Shown here one piece after another: positions 5,648 through 46,655 of a stretch of 64,000 nt of DNA (positions are counted from its first letter, which is position 1; every line of letters starts with the position of its first letter). The position numbers and the translations under genes are program-made. Source of the stretch: Hyphomicrobiaceae bacterium (GTDB taxonomy: Bacteria > Pseudomonadota > Alphaproteobacteria > Rhizobiales > Ancalomicrobiaceae); contig JAEULV010000026.1 of assembly GCA_016793065.1 (NCBI GenBank), positions 1 through 64,000 on the forward strand. Reading direction: 5' to 3'. The notes beneath the pieces are model-generated. The model was given only the letters and a program-made list of their open reading frames with translations, was not told the origin of the DNA and did not search any database.

Positions 5648-6694
5648 TCAGGCGGCCTGCGGGATGTCCTGATTGGTGGCGTGGATTTCGAGGACCCGCG
5701 CCCAGCCGGCGAAGAAGGCGTCGACGCAGGCCGGATCGAAGTGCTGGCCGCGTTCGGTCACCAGATAGGCGCGCGCCTGTTCGAGCGACCACGGCTTCTT
5801 GTAGGGGCGCTCGGAGGTGAGCGCGTCGAAGACGTCGGCGACGGCGGCGATGCGGCCGCTGAGCGGGATATCGGTGCCGCTCAGGCCGAGCGGATAGCCC
5901 TTGCCGTCCCAACGCTCGTGATGGCTGCCGGCGATCTCCGAGGCGAGCTTGATCAGCGGCGCCTGCGAGCCGCCGAGGATTTCCTGGCCGAAGCGAGTGT
6001 GGCGTTCCATCTCGACGCGCTCTTCCGGGGTGAAGCGTCCCGGCTTCAGCAGGATCGCATCGGGCACGGCGATCTTGCCGACGTCGTGCATCGGCGCGGC
6101 CCGCCACAGGTCGTTGACGTAGTCGGGATCGCAGCCGAGGCCCTCGGCGATGATGCGGCTGTAATGGGCCATGCGCAGGATGTGCATGCCGGTCTCGCTG
6201 TCGCGATATTCCGCCGCCCGCGACAGGCGCAGGATGATCTCTTCCTCGCGGTCGGCGAGTTCCTTGGTCGCCTTGGCGACCTCGCGCGCCAGTTCGTCGG
6301 CGCGACCGCGCAACAGCCGCGCGGCGTCCTTCAGCCGCAGCAGATTGCGCATGCGGGCCTTGAACTCGGTGGCGTCGATCGGCTTGGTGATGAAGTCGGT
6401 GGCGCCCTCTTCCAGCGCCTTGATGCGGACGGCGCGCTGGTCGGCCGTGGTCACCATCACGATCGGGGTATCGACAAGGCGCGGATCGGCGCGCAGCCGG
6501 GCGATCACCTCAAGCCCGTCGATTTCCGGCATCATGTAGTCGACGAGGATCAGGTCGGGATCCTCGCCCGGCATGCAGGTCATGGCTTCAAGCGGGTTGG
6601 TGAAGGCGTGAATGTCGCCGCCATGCACCTGACGCGCCAGCCCCTGCATCAGCATGACGTTGACCGGGCTGTCGTCGATGATGATCACGCTCAT
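5648..6694 (-). CDS. Response regulator with HD-GYP cyclic di-GMP phosphodiesterase domain
   Basis: The 348-residue cytoplasmic protein has an N-terminal receiver domain with phospho-aspartate D52 (LVDYMMPEIDG), a coiled linker at about 125-160, and an HD-GYP domain with H203/D204 (PMHDVGKIAVPD) and the GYP signature at 266-268 (DGKGYPLG). Proteins of this RpfG-like type hydrolyse cyclic di-GMP when phosphorylated. I chose the ATG at 6694 because AGAGAGG lies seven bases upstream and the receiver domain begins at once (MSVIIIDD); longer in-frame starts at 6727 and 6766 would only add an unstructured extension. It is the first gene of the operon with the sulfite-oxidase-like protein and the hybrid kinase, which is its likely phosphodonor. 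Confidence 0.93.
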   Translation of the reverse strand: MSVIIIDDSPVNVMLMQGLARQVHGGDIHAFTNPLEAMTCMPGEDPDLILVDYMMPEIDGLEVIARLRADPRLVDTPIVMVTTADQRAVRIKALEEGATDFITKPIDATEFKARMRNLLRLKDAARLLRGRADELAREVAKATKELADREEEIILRLSRAAEYRDSETGMHILRMAHYSRIIAEGLGCDPDYVNDLWRAAPMHDVGKIAVPDAILLKPGRFTPEERVEMERHTRFGQEILGGSQAPLIKLASEIAGSHHERWDGKGYPLGLSGTDIPLSGRIAAVADVFDALTSERPYKKPWSLEQARAYLVTERGQHFDPACVDAFFAGWARVLEIHATNQDIPQAA

Positions 6695-7040
6695 CACGGG
6701 CCTCTCTTTTGCATTCCGCAAATTCATGTTTGTTTCTAATTGGAAGTATCGCGGATAAATCTTCAAATTCAGCTAAATCGATGGCTCTCATTTTAACGAA
6801 CAAGCTTATGACGCATGATGTCAGTGATTTATGGGCACTCACGTTACGTAATAAACTCGCTTTTGCGACTCACATGGCGTGATATCTGTGCTTTCGATTT
6901 GAGTAACGACTGATTTTGTCGATGCATCGAAAGCAATGACCGCAGTCATTATTGCAAATTCGGACGATCGTCCGACGGTCGGTTTGCATTTTGCAAAGGA
7001 GCGGTATTGACCAGCGCGGCGCACACCCCGGCCGCCACGA
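6695..7040. other. Intergenic region upstream of the HD-GYP operon
   Basis: No convincing gene is seen here. The stretch is clearly less GC-rich than its surroundings, as expected of a promoter region for the leftward signalling operon. It holds a perfect 14-base palindrome CGGACGATCGTCCG at 6961-6974, and AATGAC-CGCA-GTCATT at 6935-6950, which has the TGAC-N4-GTCA core of a CRP/FNR-family site but departs from the outer bases seen at the nor and nir boxes. A 61-codon leftward open frame at 6839-7024 has no recognisable features. Confidence 0.5.
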
Positions 7041-20495: not shown

Positions 20496-20509
20496 CTGAC
20501 CTAAATCAA
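20496..20509 (+). promoter_or_regulatory. FNR/Dnr-like box upstream of candidate small RNA
   Basis: The sequence CTGAC-CTAA-ATCAA matches eight of ten defined bases of the FNR consensus TTGAT-N4-ATCAA. It lies about 100 bases before a terminator hairpin and 220 bases before the nor box, so it is better placed to drive a short transcript than norC itself. No convincing -10 element was seen at the matching distance. Confidence 0.45.
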
Positions 20510-20544
20510 GTCGATCGCGACCGACGCGTGCTCAACTGCCGCCA

Positions 20545-20661
20545 TCGTGAACATCTCCCCTCCTGACATTTCATAGGTGTTCGCGGTTTCGAGCCATTAT
20601 AACTTTCAAGGACGGCTGGATCACGCTACGCAACACGTGATTTAGCCGTCTTTTCTTTTTT
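20545..20661 (+). ncRNA. Candidate small RNA with anti-Shine-Dalgarno-like loop
   Basis: A plus-strand transcript driven from the box at 20496-20509 would begin near 20545 and end at the terminator at 20611-20661. It would include an unpaired pyrimidine run CTCCCCTCCT at 20555-20564, complementary to strong ribosome-binding sites. Known anaerobic small RNAs such as FnrS share this plan (FNR box, short RNA, Rho-independent end). The exact start is inferred, not seen, and the whole could instead be an untranslated tail of another transcript. Confidence 0.4.
20611..20661 (+). terminator. Intrinsic terminator upstream of norC
   Basis: GACGGCT at 20611-20617 pairs with AGCCGTC at 20644-20650, and the inner ATCACG (20620-20625) pairs with CGTGAT (20636-20641). 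A run of T bases broken by a single C follows. No protein gene ends close to it on this strand: hspQ ends 340 bases earlier. Confidence 0.85.
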
Positions 20662-20715
20662 GACGCAGCTTTTTTGCGGTTTCGAATTCGGCCTGACCTA
20701 CTGTTTCGAATCCGG

Positions 20716-20729
20716 TTGACAGTGGTCAA
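20716..20729 (+). promoter_or_regulatory. Dnr/NnrR-type box of the nor operon
   Basis: TTGAC-AGTG-GTCAA is a perfect inverted repeat of the CRP/FNR-family form, with its centre 72 bases before the norC ATG. It shares both half-sites with the box before nirS, which points to one shared regulator, most likely the Dnr/NnrR-type protein encoded at 26562-27272. Confidence 0.85.
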
Positions 20730-20794
20730 GTGGTCGCGGCGCCGGCGCGGTCATACCTCGTGACAGCCCGAACTTTGCTGAAGGGGGACTGGGC

Positions 20795-21247
20795 ATGAGC
20801 GAAATGCTGACCAAATCGGCTGCCCGCAACATTTTCTACGGCGGATCAGCCTTCTTCTTCGCGGTCTTCATCGGACTGGCCGCGCACAGCCACTATTACG
20901 CGGCGACGGTTTCGACCGACGTCGCCGGACTGACCGAGTCAGTCGAGCGCGGCAAGCGCATCTGGGAAAAACACGCTTGCGTCGACTGCCACTCCATCCT
21001 TGGCGAGGGCGCCTACTTCGCGCCCGAGCTCGGTAACGTCTTCGTCCGCTACGGCGGCGACAAGGACGCCAAGGGCGCGCGCGAGGCGTTGAAGGCCTGG
21101 ATGCAGGCGCAGCCGACCGGCATCGAGGGCCGGCGGCAAATGCCGCAATTCCACCTGAACGACAAGGAGCTCGACGATCTGGTCGACTTCCTCGCCTGGA
21201 CCAACAAGATCAAGACGCAGAACTGGCCGCCGAAGGTTTCCGGCTGA
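20795..21247 (+). CDS. norC: Nitric oxide reductase cytochrome c subunit NorC
   Basis: NorC is the membrane-anchored monohaem subunit that passes electrons to NorB. The 150-residue protein has one N-terminal transmembrane helix (about 18-36), then the haem motif CVDCH within WEKHACVDCHSILGEGAYFAPEL, and a likely axial methionine in GRRQMPQFHL. Length and sequence match the family closely. It is the first gene of norCBQDEF and sits behind a perfect Dnr/NnrR box. Confidence 0.98.
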   Translation: MSEMLTKSAARNIFYGGSAFFFAVFIGLAAHSHYYAATVSTDVAGLTESVERGKRIWEKHACVDCHSILGEGAYFAPELGNVFVRYGGDKDAKGAREALKAWMQAQPTGIEGRRQMPQFHLNDKELDDLVDFLAWTNKIKTQNWPPKVSG

Positions 21248-21289
21248 TCTCGTCATCCGTGTTCAACTTCAAACCGCGAGGGCGGTCCC

Positions 21290-22633
21290 ATGAAGTACGA
21301 ATCCCAATCCATCGCCAAATGGTACTGGTTCGTCGCGATGGCCCTGTTTGCCGTGCAGGTCACGGTCGGGGTTCTGGCGGGCTATGTCTATGTGGCGCCA
21401 AACTTCCTGTCGGAATTGCTGCCGTTCAACATCATCCGCATGCTGCACACCAATGCCTTGATCGTGTGGCTGCTGCTGGGGTTCTTCGGCGCTGCCTACT
21501 ACCTCATCCCGGAGGAATCCGAGCGTGAGATCTATTCGCCCAAGCTCGCCTACCTGCAGCTGGTCATCCTGGTGATCGGTGCCGGCGGCGCGGTGGTCGG
21601 CTACCTGTTCCGCATCCACGAGGGACGCGAGTTCCTGGAACAGCCGCTGTGGGTCAAGCTCGGCATCATCGTCGCGGCGCTGATCTTCCTGTTCAACATC
21701 TCGATGACCGTGCTTGCCGGGCGCAAGACCGCGATCACCAACGTGTTGCTGCTGGGCCTGTGGGGCATCGCCGTCTTCTTCCTGTTCTCGCTCTACAATC
21801 CGGCCAACCTCGTGCTCGACAAGATGTACTGGTGGTGGGTCGTGCATCTGTGGGTGGAAGGCGTGTGGGAACTGGTGATGGCCTCGGTCCTCGCCTTCAT
21901 CCTGCTGAAGCTGACGGGCGTCGATCGCGAAGTGGTGGAAAAGTGGCTCTATGTCATCGTCGCCACGTCGCTGTTCACCGGCGTCCTTGGCACCGGCCAC
22001 CACTATTACTGGATCGGCACACCCGGCTACTGGCAGTGGATCGGTTCGATCTTCTCGTCTCTGGAGGTCATCCCGTTCTTCGCCATGGTGGTGTTCTCGT
22101 TCATGATGGTGTGGAAGGGCAAGCGCGATCATCCGAACAAGGCCGCCTTGCTGTGGTCGCTCGGCTGCGCAGTGCTCGCCTTCTTCGGCGCCGGCGTCTG
22201 GGGCTTCATGCACACCCTGCACCCGGTCAACTACTATACCCACGGCACCCAGGTGACGGCGGCGCACGGCCACCTCGCGTTCTTCGGCGCCTATGTCGCG
22301 CTGAACCTCGCGATCATGACCTATGCCTTCCCGCACCTGCTGAAGCGCTCGCCCTATAATCAGGTCCTGAACATGGCCTCGTTCTGGGTGATGACGTCGG
22401 CGATGGCGTTCATGACCTTCACCCTGACCTTCGCCGGCGCGGTGCAGACCCACCTGCAGCGGGTTCTCGGCATGAACTTCATGGAAGTGCAGGACCAGCT
22501 GGCGCTGTTCTACTGGATGCGTCTCGGCTCGGGCATCGTCGTCGTCCTCGGCGCGCTGATGTGGCTCTACGCCATGCTCGGCCCGAAGGCCGCCTCGACC
22601 GAGCTTGCCGGTCAGGCCGCCCCGGCGGAATGA
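21290..22633 (+). CDS. norB: Nitric oxide reductase catalytic subunit NorB
   Basis: NorB is the haem-copper-oxidase-like subunit that reduces two NO to N2O at a haem b3/non-haem iron centre in the inner membrane. The 447-residue protein has twelve hydrophobic helices. Metal ligand histidines are seen in MLHTNALIVW, VVHLWVEGVWEL, GTGHHYYWIG and AAHGHLAFFGAYVALN, and the glutamate in VEGVWEL is one of the catalytic acidic residues of cNOR. It follows norC by 42 bases. An inverted repeat with a T run comes 31 bases after its stop. Confidence 0.98.
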   Translation: MKYESQSIAKWYWFVAMALFAVQVTVGVLAGYVYVAPNFLSELLPFNIIRMLHTNALIVWLLLGFFGAAYYLIPEESEREIYSPKLAYLQLVILVIGAGGAVVGYLFRIHEGREFLEQPLWVKLGIIVAALIFLFNISMTVLAGRKTAITNVLLLGLWGIAVFFLFSLYNPANLVLDKMYWWWVVHLWVEGVWELVMASVLAFILLKLTGVDREVVEKWLYVIVATSLFTGVLGTGHHYYWIGTPGYWQWIGSIFSSLEVIPFFAMVVFSFMMVWKGKRDHPNKAALLWSLGCAVLAFFGAGVWGFMHTLHPVNYYTHGTQVTAAHGHLAFFGAYVALNLAIMTYAFPHLLKRSPYNQVLNMASFWVMTSAMAFMTFTLTFAGAVQTHLQRVLGMNFMEVQDQLALFYWMRLGSGIVVVLGALMWLYAMLGPKAASTELAGQAAPAE

Positions 22634-43415: not shown

Positions 43416-44165
43416 TCAGGCGGCGGCGAGCTTGGCCATGACCTCGTCGGAGACCTCGAAGTTGGAGAAGACGTTCTGCACGTCGTCGTCATCCTCGAGC
43501 ACGCCGATCAGCTTCATCACCGAATGGGCCTTTTCCTCGTCGAGCGGCACGGTGTTCTGCGGGCGCCAGACGGCCTTGACCGACTCGGCCGCGCCGAGCG
43601 TGGCTTCCAGCGCCTTGGCGACTTCGCTCATCGCCTCGAACGAGCAAGTGACGGTGTGGTGATCGTCGTCCGACTGGACGTCGTCGGCGCCGGCGTTGAG
43701 CACATGCTCGAACATTTCATCGGTGGTGGCGACGGCGGCCTTGTAGCGGATTTCCGCCAGGCGATCGAACGAGAACGACACCGAATTGCTTTCGCCGAGC
43801 GCGCCGCCGAACTTGGCGAAGGCAGCGCGGACGTTGCCGCCGGTGCGGTTGCGGTTGTCGGTCAGGGTCTCGACGATGACGGCGACGCCGCCGGGGCCGT
43901 AGCCCTCGTAGCGGACTTCGTCATAGTTCTCGGCGTCGGCGCCCGAGCCCTTCTTGATGGCGCGATCGATATTGTCGCGCGGCATGTTTTCGGCGCGGGC
44001 ATTCAGGATCGCCAGTCGCAGCTTGGCGTTCATGTTCGGGTCGGGCAAACCGCCCTTGGCCGCGACGGTGATCTCGCGGGCAAGCTTGGAGAACAGCTTC
44101 GAACGCATCGCGTCCTGCTTGCCCTTGCGATGCATGATGTTCTTGAACTGACTATGACCTGCCAT
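43416..44165 (-). CDS. yebC: YebC/PmpR family protein (translation or transcription regulator)
   Basis: The 249-residue protein has the family start [19 protein letters not shown], the block [19 protein letters not shown] and the later [12 protein letters not shown]. YebC was long called a DNA-binding regulator and is now also linked to relieving ribosome stalling. Length is typical. The AT-rich two-gene cassette ends 50 bases upstream in the same direction. Confidence 0.96.
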
Positions 44166-44215
44166 TGTTCCGCTTCACTGTTGGGCGCTCGATCATAGAT
44201 CGAGCTGAAATACAA

Positions 44216-44437
44216 TTATCCCGCTGCAACCTTCTTCGAGCGCGACGAACCGCCATCTAGGTGCGCAGACCGGCGGCGTTTACCTATCCCGGTTTTCTCA
44301 AGTTCCAGTCGCAAGCGATTAATAGCTTCCTCGACCAGTTCGGACGGCAACTTCTGTCGCCGGAACAAAAGCGACTCACCGTGTCGCCGTGGAGAAGGCA
44401 TCTTCAGCCGCGCGGGCATCTGGGGACCGGTCGTCAT
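44216..44437 (-). CDS. Small basic protein, partner of the proteasome-like gene
   Basis: The 73-residue protein is rich in arginine and lysine, with a predicted helix in the middle (LPSELVEEAINRLRLELEK). No family is recognised. Its ATG shares a base with the stop of the proteasome-like gene (TGATG at 44439-44435), so the two are translationally coupled; a GTG three bases earlier is also possible. Base composition is mixed, less GC-rich than yebC. It may be a regulator, adaptor or inhibitor of the upstream protein; this is inference only. Confidence 0.65.
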   Translation of the reverse strand: MTTGPQMPARLKMPSPRRHGESLLFRRQKLPSELVEEAINRLRLELEKTGIGKRRRSAHLDGGSSRSKKVAAG

Positions 44438-45759
44438 CACTTCGCTCCAAGTCTGGCGGCAGCGAGCAGGCGCGCTTCGTAGCCCGGATTGAGGTTCCTG
44501 TCAAAATAGTGCTTACGCCGAACCCAGACAAACCCCTCGTTTCGCGAGATCACGGCGACATCAATTGGGCCACCCACGGTCTCTTGGTCCGGAGAGAATC
44601 GGCGCTTGGTTGATGTTAACTCAACAAGGGCGGACGCCATATCGGCCAGCTGCCGCCTTGACATGTGGGCAAGTATTTCGAGTGTCGCCCCCTCCTCGGC
44701 ATCTCTAAGGTCCCTCATCAACTGACTGAACTCGTTTGACAGTTTAGCCGTGAGATGGTTGATTTCCGATTTAGAAAACGCACGCGGGCGCAGTTTAAAA
44801 ACTTCCTTCAAAGCCTCTTGAACATAGTCTCTAACAGCATTCATCGCGGATTCGTCAATGCCGAACAGAAATCGTTCGGTCATGTCTGTTTGGGCGAAAG
44901 ATCGAAATGCGGCTCTCTGGTGGATTGTATCGATGGCAGTGTAACTTTGACGAAAAATCTTAAGTTTGCCAAACTGAGACCCATCTATTTCAACCGATGC
45001 CAAGCGGGGAAATTGATCTTCGTATCCGAAACCACCAAATACAAGCCCTGTAAACAGGTCTGATTTTTTCGAACTCCGCAACACATAGTACGCTAGCTCA
45101 AAAAACAACGCTTTTATTGATTCGTCTTGTCGCAGGTTCGGAAATATTGAATATGAAATCATTTCATCAATGGTATTTTTGCTTTTTTCTTCGTATACTA
45201 TTTTAAATTCCTCAATAGTTAAATTTTGTAAATATTGCTTTAGCATAACATCTTGATATTCCGCAATGTTTTGTTTAATTGATTGCATCAATGTATCTCT
45301 AAATATTGTTTCCGATTTTTGTGCATTAAATTCAGTTCTATTTTTACTACCATTCCGACGCATAACCAATAATTGGATTAGTTTTCTTTGGGCATCATCA
45401 ATTATTGAGGATATTACCGTAGAAAAATACGAAATAAAATAATTAATTTCATGTGTATTGTTATTGTATTTATCTCGTAAGTAATATAAGAAATGAACCG
45501 CAGCACCACTTAATCTTGCGAATCCTCGATCTGGCTTCGGTGCAAAATTTCGATATTCGCGGACAATCACATCAATCGGGACGCCATTGAATTCAGCATT
45601 GTTGTAAAACATGATACCAATCGGTTGGGTATTCGATAACTGAAAAATCTTTTCGGCATCATTGTGGATCTTTGCATGACCGCCGGCTGTAAGTGTTACA
45701 GCGCTGTCGGCGGCAAATGCCAATGCGGAACGGTTCATCAAGACAGTTTCGGCGGTCAT
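44437..45759 (-). CDS. Proteasome-like Ntn-hydrolase candidate, uncharacterised, AT-rich
   Basis: The 440-residue protein begins M-TAETVLMNRSALAFAADS. After removal of the methionine the threonine becomes residue 1, and the aspartate falls at position 17 (AADS), just as T1 and D17 in proteasome beta subunits. A lysine at 36 in AEKIFQL lines up with K33, and IGIMFYNNAEF matches the next beta-strand and turn. Beyond about residue 200 the chain is helical and charged, without a known domain. The ATG at 45759 is chosen because GGAG lies seven bases before it, which supports exposure of the threonine. The gene is strikingly AT-rich in its middle (about 45050-45600) and so looks acquired. It overlaps a small basic gene downstream. 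Catalysis is not proven. Confidence 0.75.
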   Translation of the reverse strand: MTAETVLMNRSALAFAADSAVTLTAGGHAKIHNDAEKIFQLSNTQPIGIMFYNNAEFNGVPIDVIVREYRNFAPKPDRGFARLSGAAVHFLYYLRDKYNNNTHEINYFISYFSTVISSIIDDAQRKLIQLLVMRRNGSKNRTEFNAQKSETIFRDTLMQSIKQNIAEYQDVMLKQYLQNLTIEEFKIVYEEKSKNTIDEMISYSIFPNLRQDESIKALFFELAYYVLRSSKKSDLFTGLVFGGFGYEDQFPRLASVEIDGSQFGKLKIFRQSYTAIDTIHQRAAFRSFAQTDMTERFLFGIDESAMNAVRDYVQEALKEVFKLRPRAFSKSEINHLTAKLSNEFSQLMRDLRDAEEGATLEILAHMSRRQLADMASALVELTSTKRRFSPDQETVGGPIDVAVISRNEGFVWVRRKHYFDRNLNPGYEARLLAAARLGAK

Positions 45760-45833
45760 ACCTATCTCCTGCAATCACAAGATAGGATGTTGTCGCCGCG
45801 ATATGCAACCGTCGCCTCGGTCCGGAGCTTCCC

Positions 45834-46655
45834 CTACCCCCACAGGTCCGGCATGGCCGGCGACAGGCGGCCGCCGAGGCGGATGGGGGCGCAGGCGCGG
45901 GCGAGGCCGGTGCGGTCGTCGATGTCGACGGCGAGGCCGCACAGGGTCGCGGTGCCGAGCGCCGGCTCGAAGCGGGCGCGGGGGATCTTGCGCTGGAAGC
46001 GGTTCAGCGGCTCGTCCTTTTCCATGCCGATGACCGAGTCGTAATCGCCGCACATGCCGACGTCGGTCTGATAGGCGGTGCCGCCGGCGAGCACCTGGTG
46101 GTCGGCGGTCGGCACGTGGGTATGGGTGCCGACGACGAGGCTGACGCGGCCGTCGAGCATGTGCGCCATCGCCTGCTTTTCCGATGTGGTCTCGGCGTGG
46201 AAATCCAGCACGATCGCATCGGCCTGTTCCCCTAGCGGACAGGCATCGACCTCGCGGGAAACGGCGGCGAAGGGATCGTCGAGCGGGTCCATGAACACCC
46301 GGCCCATGGCGTTGATCACCAGCACGCGGGCACCGGAGCGGGAAACATAGAGGTTGGCGCCCTTGCCGGGTGTGCCGGCGGGATAGTTCACCGGACGAAG
46401 CAGGCGGTCGAAGCGCTCAATATAGACCAGCGTCTCGCGCTGGTCCCAGACGTGATTGCCGGTGGTGACGACGTCGGCGCCGGCATCGATCAGCGCCTGG
46501 GCGATCTCCTCGGTGATGCCGAAGCCGCCGGCGGCGTTCTCGCCATTGACGATGACGAAGTCGAAGCGATAGCGCTCGATCAGGCCCGGCAATTCGCCCG
46601 TCACCGCATTGCGGCCGGAGCGGCCGAGAACATCACCCAGGAACAGCAAGCGCAT
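45834..46655 (-). CDS. TIGR00282 family metallophosphoesterase (YmdB-like)
   Basis: The 273-residue protein is a calcineurin-like phosphoesterase related to YmdB, which acts on 2',3'-cyclic nucleotides. Metal ligands can be read in FLGDVLGRSGR, NGENAAGGFG, TTGNHVWDQRE, DFHAETTSEK and VVGTHTHVPTAD. Length fits. In many alphaproteobacteria, as I recall, this gene lies next to yebC, so the AT-rich cassette between them here looks like an insertion. Confidence 0.93.
   Translation of the reverse strand: MRLLFLGDVLGRSGRNAVTGELPGLIERYRFDFVIVNGENAAGGFGITEEIAQALIDAGADVVTTGNHVWDQRETLVYIERFDRLLRPVNYPAGTPGKGANLYVSRSGARVLVINAMGRVFMDPLDDPFAAVSREVDACPLGEQADAIVLDFHAETTSEKQAMAHMLDGRVSLVVGTHTHVPTADHQVLAGGTAYQTDVGMCGDYDSVIGMEKDEPLNRFQRKIPRARFEPALGTATLCGLAVDIDDRTGLARACAPIRLGGRLSPAMPDLWG

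Follow-up and report, generated by a model that had tools for sequence, protein, structure and literature searches.

An imported gene pair encoding a proteasome-like Ntn hydrolase and a small basic protein recurs in phages, their satellites and plasmids across bacteria

Within the 64-kb stretch of DNA analysed here (the window), an AT-rich two-gene unit lies between yebC and a YmdB-type metallophosphoesterase gene. How this unit arrived, what its products are and what they might do are the questions raised by the locus. The large gene (44437..45759, minus strand) starts with ATG and encodes a 440-aa proteasome-like Ntn hydrolase with the architecture of the PMI-3/4 families. The small gene (44216..44437, minus strand) starts with ATG and encodes a basic protein of 73 aa, or 74 aa if the GTG at 44440 is used. 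The TGA of the large gene and the ATG of the small gene overlap in the sequence GTGATG (44435..44440, minus strand), and a GGAG lies approximately 10 nt upstream of the small-gene start; the small gene is likely to be translationally coupled to the large gene via this stop/start overlap. A Shine-Dalgarno-like AGGAG precedes the large gene (45766..45770, minus strand). ORF analysis returned the coordinates given for the unit in the first-pass annotation, which had been made from the sequence, and the pair splits the metallophosphoesterase gene (45834-46655) from yebC (43416-44165) as described there.

In five same-family relatives a gap of only 137-233 bp separates yebC from ymdB and contains no counterpart of the large gene, and in three further relatives the gap is filled with different material. 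The empty site in relatives indicates that the cassette is an insertion in the window lineage. Together with the lower GC content of the cassette relative to its flanks, this bears out the earlier description of a horizontally moved unit. Among the window ORFs no integrase was found between the cassette and either flanking gene, and no tRNA genes were found within the 64-kb window.

A promoter-like GGCTGGATTT...CTATAAGC element upstream of yebC is common to relatives L124, L126, L130, L134 and L137. The element is not clearly recognisable in the window at 44166-44215, where the cassette ends a short distance from yebC, and may have been replaced or displaced by the cassette. Two other relatives (L132 and L133) have other material in the yebC-ymdB gap, namely a 192-aa ORF and GC-rich stretches that are repeated; the gap may therefore be a recurrent insertion site.

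The pair had been noted as AT-rich relative to both neighbours, and the GC content of the large gene was 42.7%, compared with 67.6% in the flanks. It fell to 31% at 45001-45500. The most AT-rich part of the large gene encodes insertion 1 (see below), with GC values of 0.25-0.28 in places. The large gene was lower in GC than its flanks in 80/82 non-redundant loci (median difference -9.4 points), so AT-richness is a family trait that marks the cargo and not only a recent arrival. Elsewhere in the window, a second GC dip was observed at 6501-7000 (0.496 compared with approximately 0.67); it immediately precedes a response-regulator/HD-type gene (5648-6766, minus strand) and looks like an intergenic or promoter region. 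A wider, mild dip (0.56-0.62) spans 20501-22500.

Fold and active site of the large protein

AlphaFold2 modelled the large protein with confidence (pLDDT 90, pTM 0.86) as an Ntn fold containing the predicted alpha-beta-beta-alpha sandwich. When the model was searched against the PDB using Foldseek, 20S beta subunits and Anbu ranked first (E 7e-4, prob 0.99-1.00); rigid TM-scores of these matches were low because of helical insertions in the large protein. A PDB search with the large protein as a single sequence gave no match and a profile was needed. The profile of 45 homologues matched the T. acidophilum proteasome beta subunit (E 0.0011), with T2 placed on T1, K37 on K33 and the VGGPIDVAVI strand on SGGMIDVAVI. 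In PHROG, phrog_5990 (no function given) matched residues 1-428 with an E value of 9e-73. No family describing the large protein was found in Pfam, NCBIfam or PADLOC. An identity based on Pfam AccI (E 2.8e-4) or PADLOC REase_II (E 8.5e-4) was rejected; the former is under the Pfam curated cut-off, and the matches are limited to the largely helical residues 269-384, with REase_II spanning only residues 269-377. Connectase was also considered and rejected: its two-helix S3-S4 insertion is absent from the model, in which short loops connect the strands as far as residue 53.

The model comprises one Ntn domain, interrupted by two insertions and completed by a very conserved C-terminus. Helical insertion 1 (residues 101-228; 45076..45459, minus strand) follows core helices H1/H2 and helical insertion 2 (residues 330-364; 44668..44772, minus strand) is located between core helices H3 and H4. 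Both are variable, with mean column identities of 0.20 and 0.23 compared with 0.58, 0.46 and 0.74 for the core regions (82 non-redundant homologues). The first-pass annotation had assigned the protein an unknown charged C-terminal half. The C-terminal part does not form a half of its own: core strands are modelled at residues 237-289 and 399-414, and between them lies a helical insertion of the same Ntn domain. The C-terminus is the most conserved part of the large protein. Its core strands and the motif E-T-V-G-G-P-x-D-V ... G-x-x-W-x-x-R-K-x-Y-F (residues 393-419; 44503..44583, minus strand) align with the proteasome beta strand SGGxIDVAVIxxxDG. Loci L010-L014 gave partial matches, for the most part to this conserved C-terminus; these are degraded or very divergent copies, or proteins having only that part.

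Conservation of the active site was counted in the 82 non-redundant homologues. The predicted nucleophile, T2 (T1 after Met removal; codon 45754..45756, minus strand), is Thr in 81/82 and Ser in 1/82, the sole Ser being that of L106:207-1496. D18 (the D17 equivalent; codon 45706..45708, minus strand) and K37 (K36 after Met removal, aligned with proteasome K33; codon 45649..45651, minus strand) are each present in 82/82. In the archaeal proteasome beta subunit, the residues aligned with Thr1/Asp17/Lys36 are Thr1/Glu17/Lys33. The T1, D17 and K36 pattern originally picked out was thus correctly positioned, and with T/S, D and K each conserved in 82/82 sequences it is not due to chance. G238, G243, G245, G300, D400, G409 and K416 are also invariant in all 82 sequences. 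The invariance of the catalytic residues argues strongly, at the level of sequence, that the large protein is an active enzyme. Of the SGG motif the family keeps the GG, but Val occupies the position of proteasome Ser169, and owing to this Val, catalysis may differ from that of the proteasome. For the other accessory proteasome residues, Ser129 and Asp166, no secure counterpart positions were obtained. The modelled fold, the Foldseek and profile matches and the conserved active site uphold the original assignment, and on this basis the large protein is a predicted member of the proteasome-like Ntn hydrolase superfamily.

The small partner gene

A small ORF with an ATG within 25 bases of the large-gene stop was found for 71/81 non-redundant homologues, compared with 84/472 (17.8%) control ORFs taken from the same loci (Fisher p about 1e-34). 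The small ORF was accompanied by a Shine-Dalgarno-like sequence in 57 cases, compared with 33 in the controls. Under a broader start window the small ORF was found in 73/82 homologues, and in most loci without an adjacent small ORF the position of the ORF is shifted, as in L050, where GGAGG precedes it. The small gene therefore travels with the large gene, as the first-pass annotation had anticipated for the pair. Of the three outcomes named there as counting against its reading (a model lacking the Ntn sandwich, loss of T1 or D17 conservation, and absence of the small gene beside every homologue), none was observed. At L038:6001-9125, the small partner is replaced by a coupled ORF of 360 aa, which overlaps the large gene and has apparent membrane segments at its N-terminus. 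In two E. coli prophages (L150 and L151), partner ORFs of 49 aa and 34 aa, just after 13284 and 12189 respectively, are without RefSeq annotation. Short partner ORFs are probably missed in many database records.

The small proteins have a median length of 58 aa and a median net charge of +4. Comparison of the L002 and L024 small genes gave 13 synonymous and 1 non-synonymous codon changes; as judged from such changes, the small gene is under purifying selection in closely related pairs. Sequence divergence is faster in the small proteins than in the large ones (median identity of 60% compared with 78% in one band), and the small proteins fall into at least 8 unrelated-looking sequence clusters, so that a common partner function is suggested by position only. 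The model of the window small protein contains one helix (residues 32-49, pLDDT 77-78; mean pLDDT 64), outside of which the protein is probably disordered. No DNA-binding domain was found in it, its search against PHROG gave no match below E 0.2, and no match was obtained by plasmid tblastn.

Two candidate universal features of the small proteins were rejected. An amphipathic helix beat the protein's own shuffles at p<0.05 in only 14/73 cases, and an [FY]xP motif was mainly limited to one cluster. The partners of L050, L070, L085, L086, L100 and L118, otherwise divergent in sequence, have a common W/F-x-x-x-F/Y-x-P motif (12 matches compared with a mean of 0.6 in shuffles), which is a possible docking motif.

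Distribution and possible role

Across bacteria, copies of this imported pair turn up again in phages, in satellites of phages and on plasmids. The large-gene family was found in 13 phage records, 9 of which are from Streptococcus (7 satellites and 2 prophages), on 10 plasmids and in at least 159 viral contigs. Its occurrence is sporadic (11/399 genomes of the phylum; 22/5426 E. coli). In streptococcal satellites the pair is the last module, at the opposite end from the integrase and often just downstream of a HigBA-like pair, and in prophage Javan85 its gene is last, after the lysin. In one E. coli prophage group an HTH repressor gene precedes the pair by approximately 40 bp on the same strand, and in another group the pair lies between Q and the lysis region. 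The commonest immediate neighbours in viral contigs are repressors, Q and holin/endolysin genes, and M78 (ImmA-like) peptidases are also found among the neighbours. Sites beside repressor, Q and lysis genes are classical accessory-gene sites. Exceptions, in phage structural regions, are one Porphyromonas phage copy and one Stenotrophomonas phage copy. The Rhizobium leguminosarum copy (L029:6001-7229) matches in two frames and is probably frameshifted or affected by a sequencing error.

This distribution suggests that mobile elements use the pair against rivals. The reading favoured here, to which we give an even chance, is a mobile-element-borne two-gene protease cassette that probably serves superinfection exclusion or anti-phage defence. 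Met1 would be removed to expose Thr1 without a propeptide, and Thr1 would work with Asp17 and Lys36 as a Thr1 peptidase. The two insertions are predicted at the proteasome pore-loop and ring-ring contact sites, so assembly of the large protein into a standard double-ring barrel is improbable, and it may be kept gated. The co-translated small basic protein would bind the large one as an assembly, activation or inhibition partner. Entry of a competing phage or other element would switch the complex on, and the active complex would cleave a phage or host protein, resulting in superinfection exclusion or abortive defence. It is location in prophages, satellites and plasmids, and that only, which favours the defence step. 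Against this reading, the structural-region copies of the Porphyromonas and Stenotrophomonas phages fit superinfection exclusion less neatly, no defence-island setting was seen for chromosomal copies, whose neighbours are mostly ordinary, and PADLOC models gave no defence-system match to either protein beyond the weak REase_II. NCBIfam gave nothing relevant. Nothing linking the proteasome-like family to defence or function was found in the literature, in which subscription journals were thinly covered, so absence is not proven. The RecD-like match in the neighbourhood of the L140 copy is apparently to a generic helicase.

A proteolytic toxin-antitoxin or addiction pair, in which the large protein acts as a toxic protease and the small protein as its labile inhibitor, the carrier element is stabilised and defence is secondary, is considered unlikely. 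It would account for two overlapping genes whose second product is tiny, evolves fast and is mostly disordered, for carriage on plasmids and satellites, and for the position next to HigBA in the latter. However, most type II antitoxins are encoded first in their operon and the small gene comes second, the small proteins are mostly basic, that of the window is without a DNA-binding domain, and a location among phage structural genes is unusual for addiction modules.

The pair adjoins lysogeny repressors or Q in several prophages, and the M78 peptidases among its neighbours recall a further role as a life-cycle regulator: a protease that, like ImmA-type proteases, cleaves a repressor, antiterminator or host regulator and sets lysogeny or induction. 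The same pair is found without a phage repressor on plasmids, on chromosomes (the window included) and at the accessory end of satellites, and we regard this role as improbable.

In Rhizobium, Shinella, Sphingomonas and Novosphingobium the pair adjoins a MultiUb-E2 / E1-JAB (ThiF/JAB) / DUF6527 operon (the ubiquitin-like context of the Shinella copy being judged from ORF layout only), and a ClpP-type gene is annotated beside the pair in Rhizobium copies. The Rhizobium and Novosphingobium large proteins are 56% identical and keep this arrangement. In Mesorhizobium, MultiUb and ThiF occur in a different arrangement with a homologue that is 27-30% identical. The large protein could accordingly be the degradation arm of a bacterial ubiquitin-like system, with the peptidase or its partner receiving substrates marked by the adjacent MultiUb-E2 / E1-JAB. 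However, an HTH gene and other ORFs separate the pair from the ubiquitin-like genes, and no such genes are near the window copy or most of the phage copies. In 298 genomes of the window's order the family was found in 11 (two marginal) and Multi_ubiq in 21, with both in one genome on separate contigs; a general link is thus unsupported order-wide, and the link is real locally. The degradation-arm reading has a slim chance of being correct. A wider proposal, for which we would claim only a little more, is that PMI-type homologues with their small partners are an unrecognised phage-conflict protease class and, in some alphaproteobacteria, provide the proteolysis of a complete bacterial immune system that combines ubiquitin conjugation with a protease (MultiUb-E2, E1-JAB, DUF6527, ClpP).

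A stress or quality-control protease gained by horizontal transfer and comparable to HslV or Anbu is very improbable: it would suit the fold and catalytic residues of a proteasome homologue, but no AAA+ unfoldase, alpha subunit or HslU-like neighbour was noticed nearby, the insertions lie at ring contacts, and the pair is sporadic and carried by mobile elements. The first-pass annotation had offered a defence or protein-quality system; the mobile-element location favours a conflict role over quality control, both roles being putative, and no defence model was matched.

If the favoured defensive reading is correct, a proteasome-type protease, a relative of the eukaryotic degradation machine, takes part directly in phage-bacteria conflict. 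The E. coli prophage copies make the pair accessible in standard laboratory strains.

Comparison with known systems

Thr1, the acidic residue 17, Lys33 and the C-terminal GGxIDVAVI strand of the 20S beta subunit (T. acidophilum, 1PMA chain B) align with the large protein. The beta subunit has approximately 210 residues, whereas the large protein has 440, with two helical insertions, no propeptide and Val at the Ser169 position. Anbu, which was among the best fold matches, and HslV are, like the large protein, bacterial Ntn homologues of the proteasome; unlike them, the large protein has insertions, a mobile-element distribution and a coupled small gene. The repressor-linked E. coli prophage group also resembles the lambda rexAB-type exclusion genes, which likewise lie directly downstream of the lysogeny repressor on the same strand. 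No sequence relation to rexAB is claimed, and in other prophages the pair is located elsewhere.

Fuchs, Alva and Lupas (2021; PMC8665760) described 22 proteasome homologue families, with no gene context hinting at function. Their PMI-4 has insertions after H1/H2 and between H3/H4 and was reported across bacterial phyla and in phages (PMC8665760). The modelled large protein shares with PMI-4 (and PMI-3) the proteasome-like Ntn fold and both insertions (residues 101-228 and 330-364), and it matches PMI-3/PMI-4 by architecture, being placed there by insertion pattern and not by sequence clustering. New here are the small ORF in 71/81 loci, the AT-richness in 80/82 and the prophage, satellite, plasmid and ubiquitin-like-operon settings. 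Where the earlier paper reports no informative gene context, the coupled small gene and the recurrent mobile-element sites, together with the ubiquitin-like-operon positions, make one context-less family a testable two-gene system.
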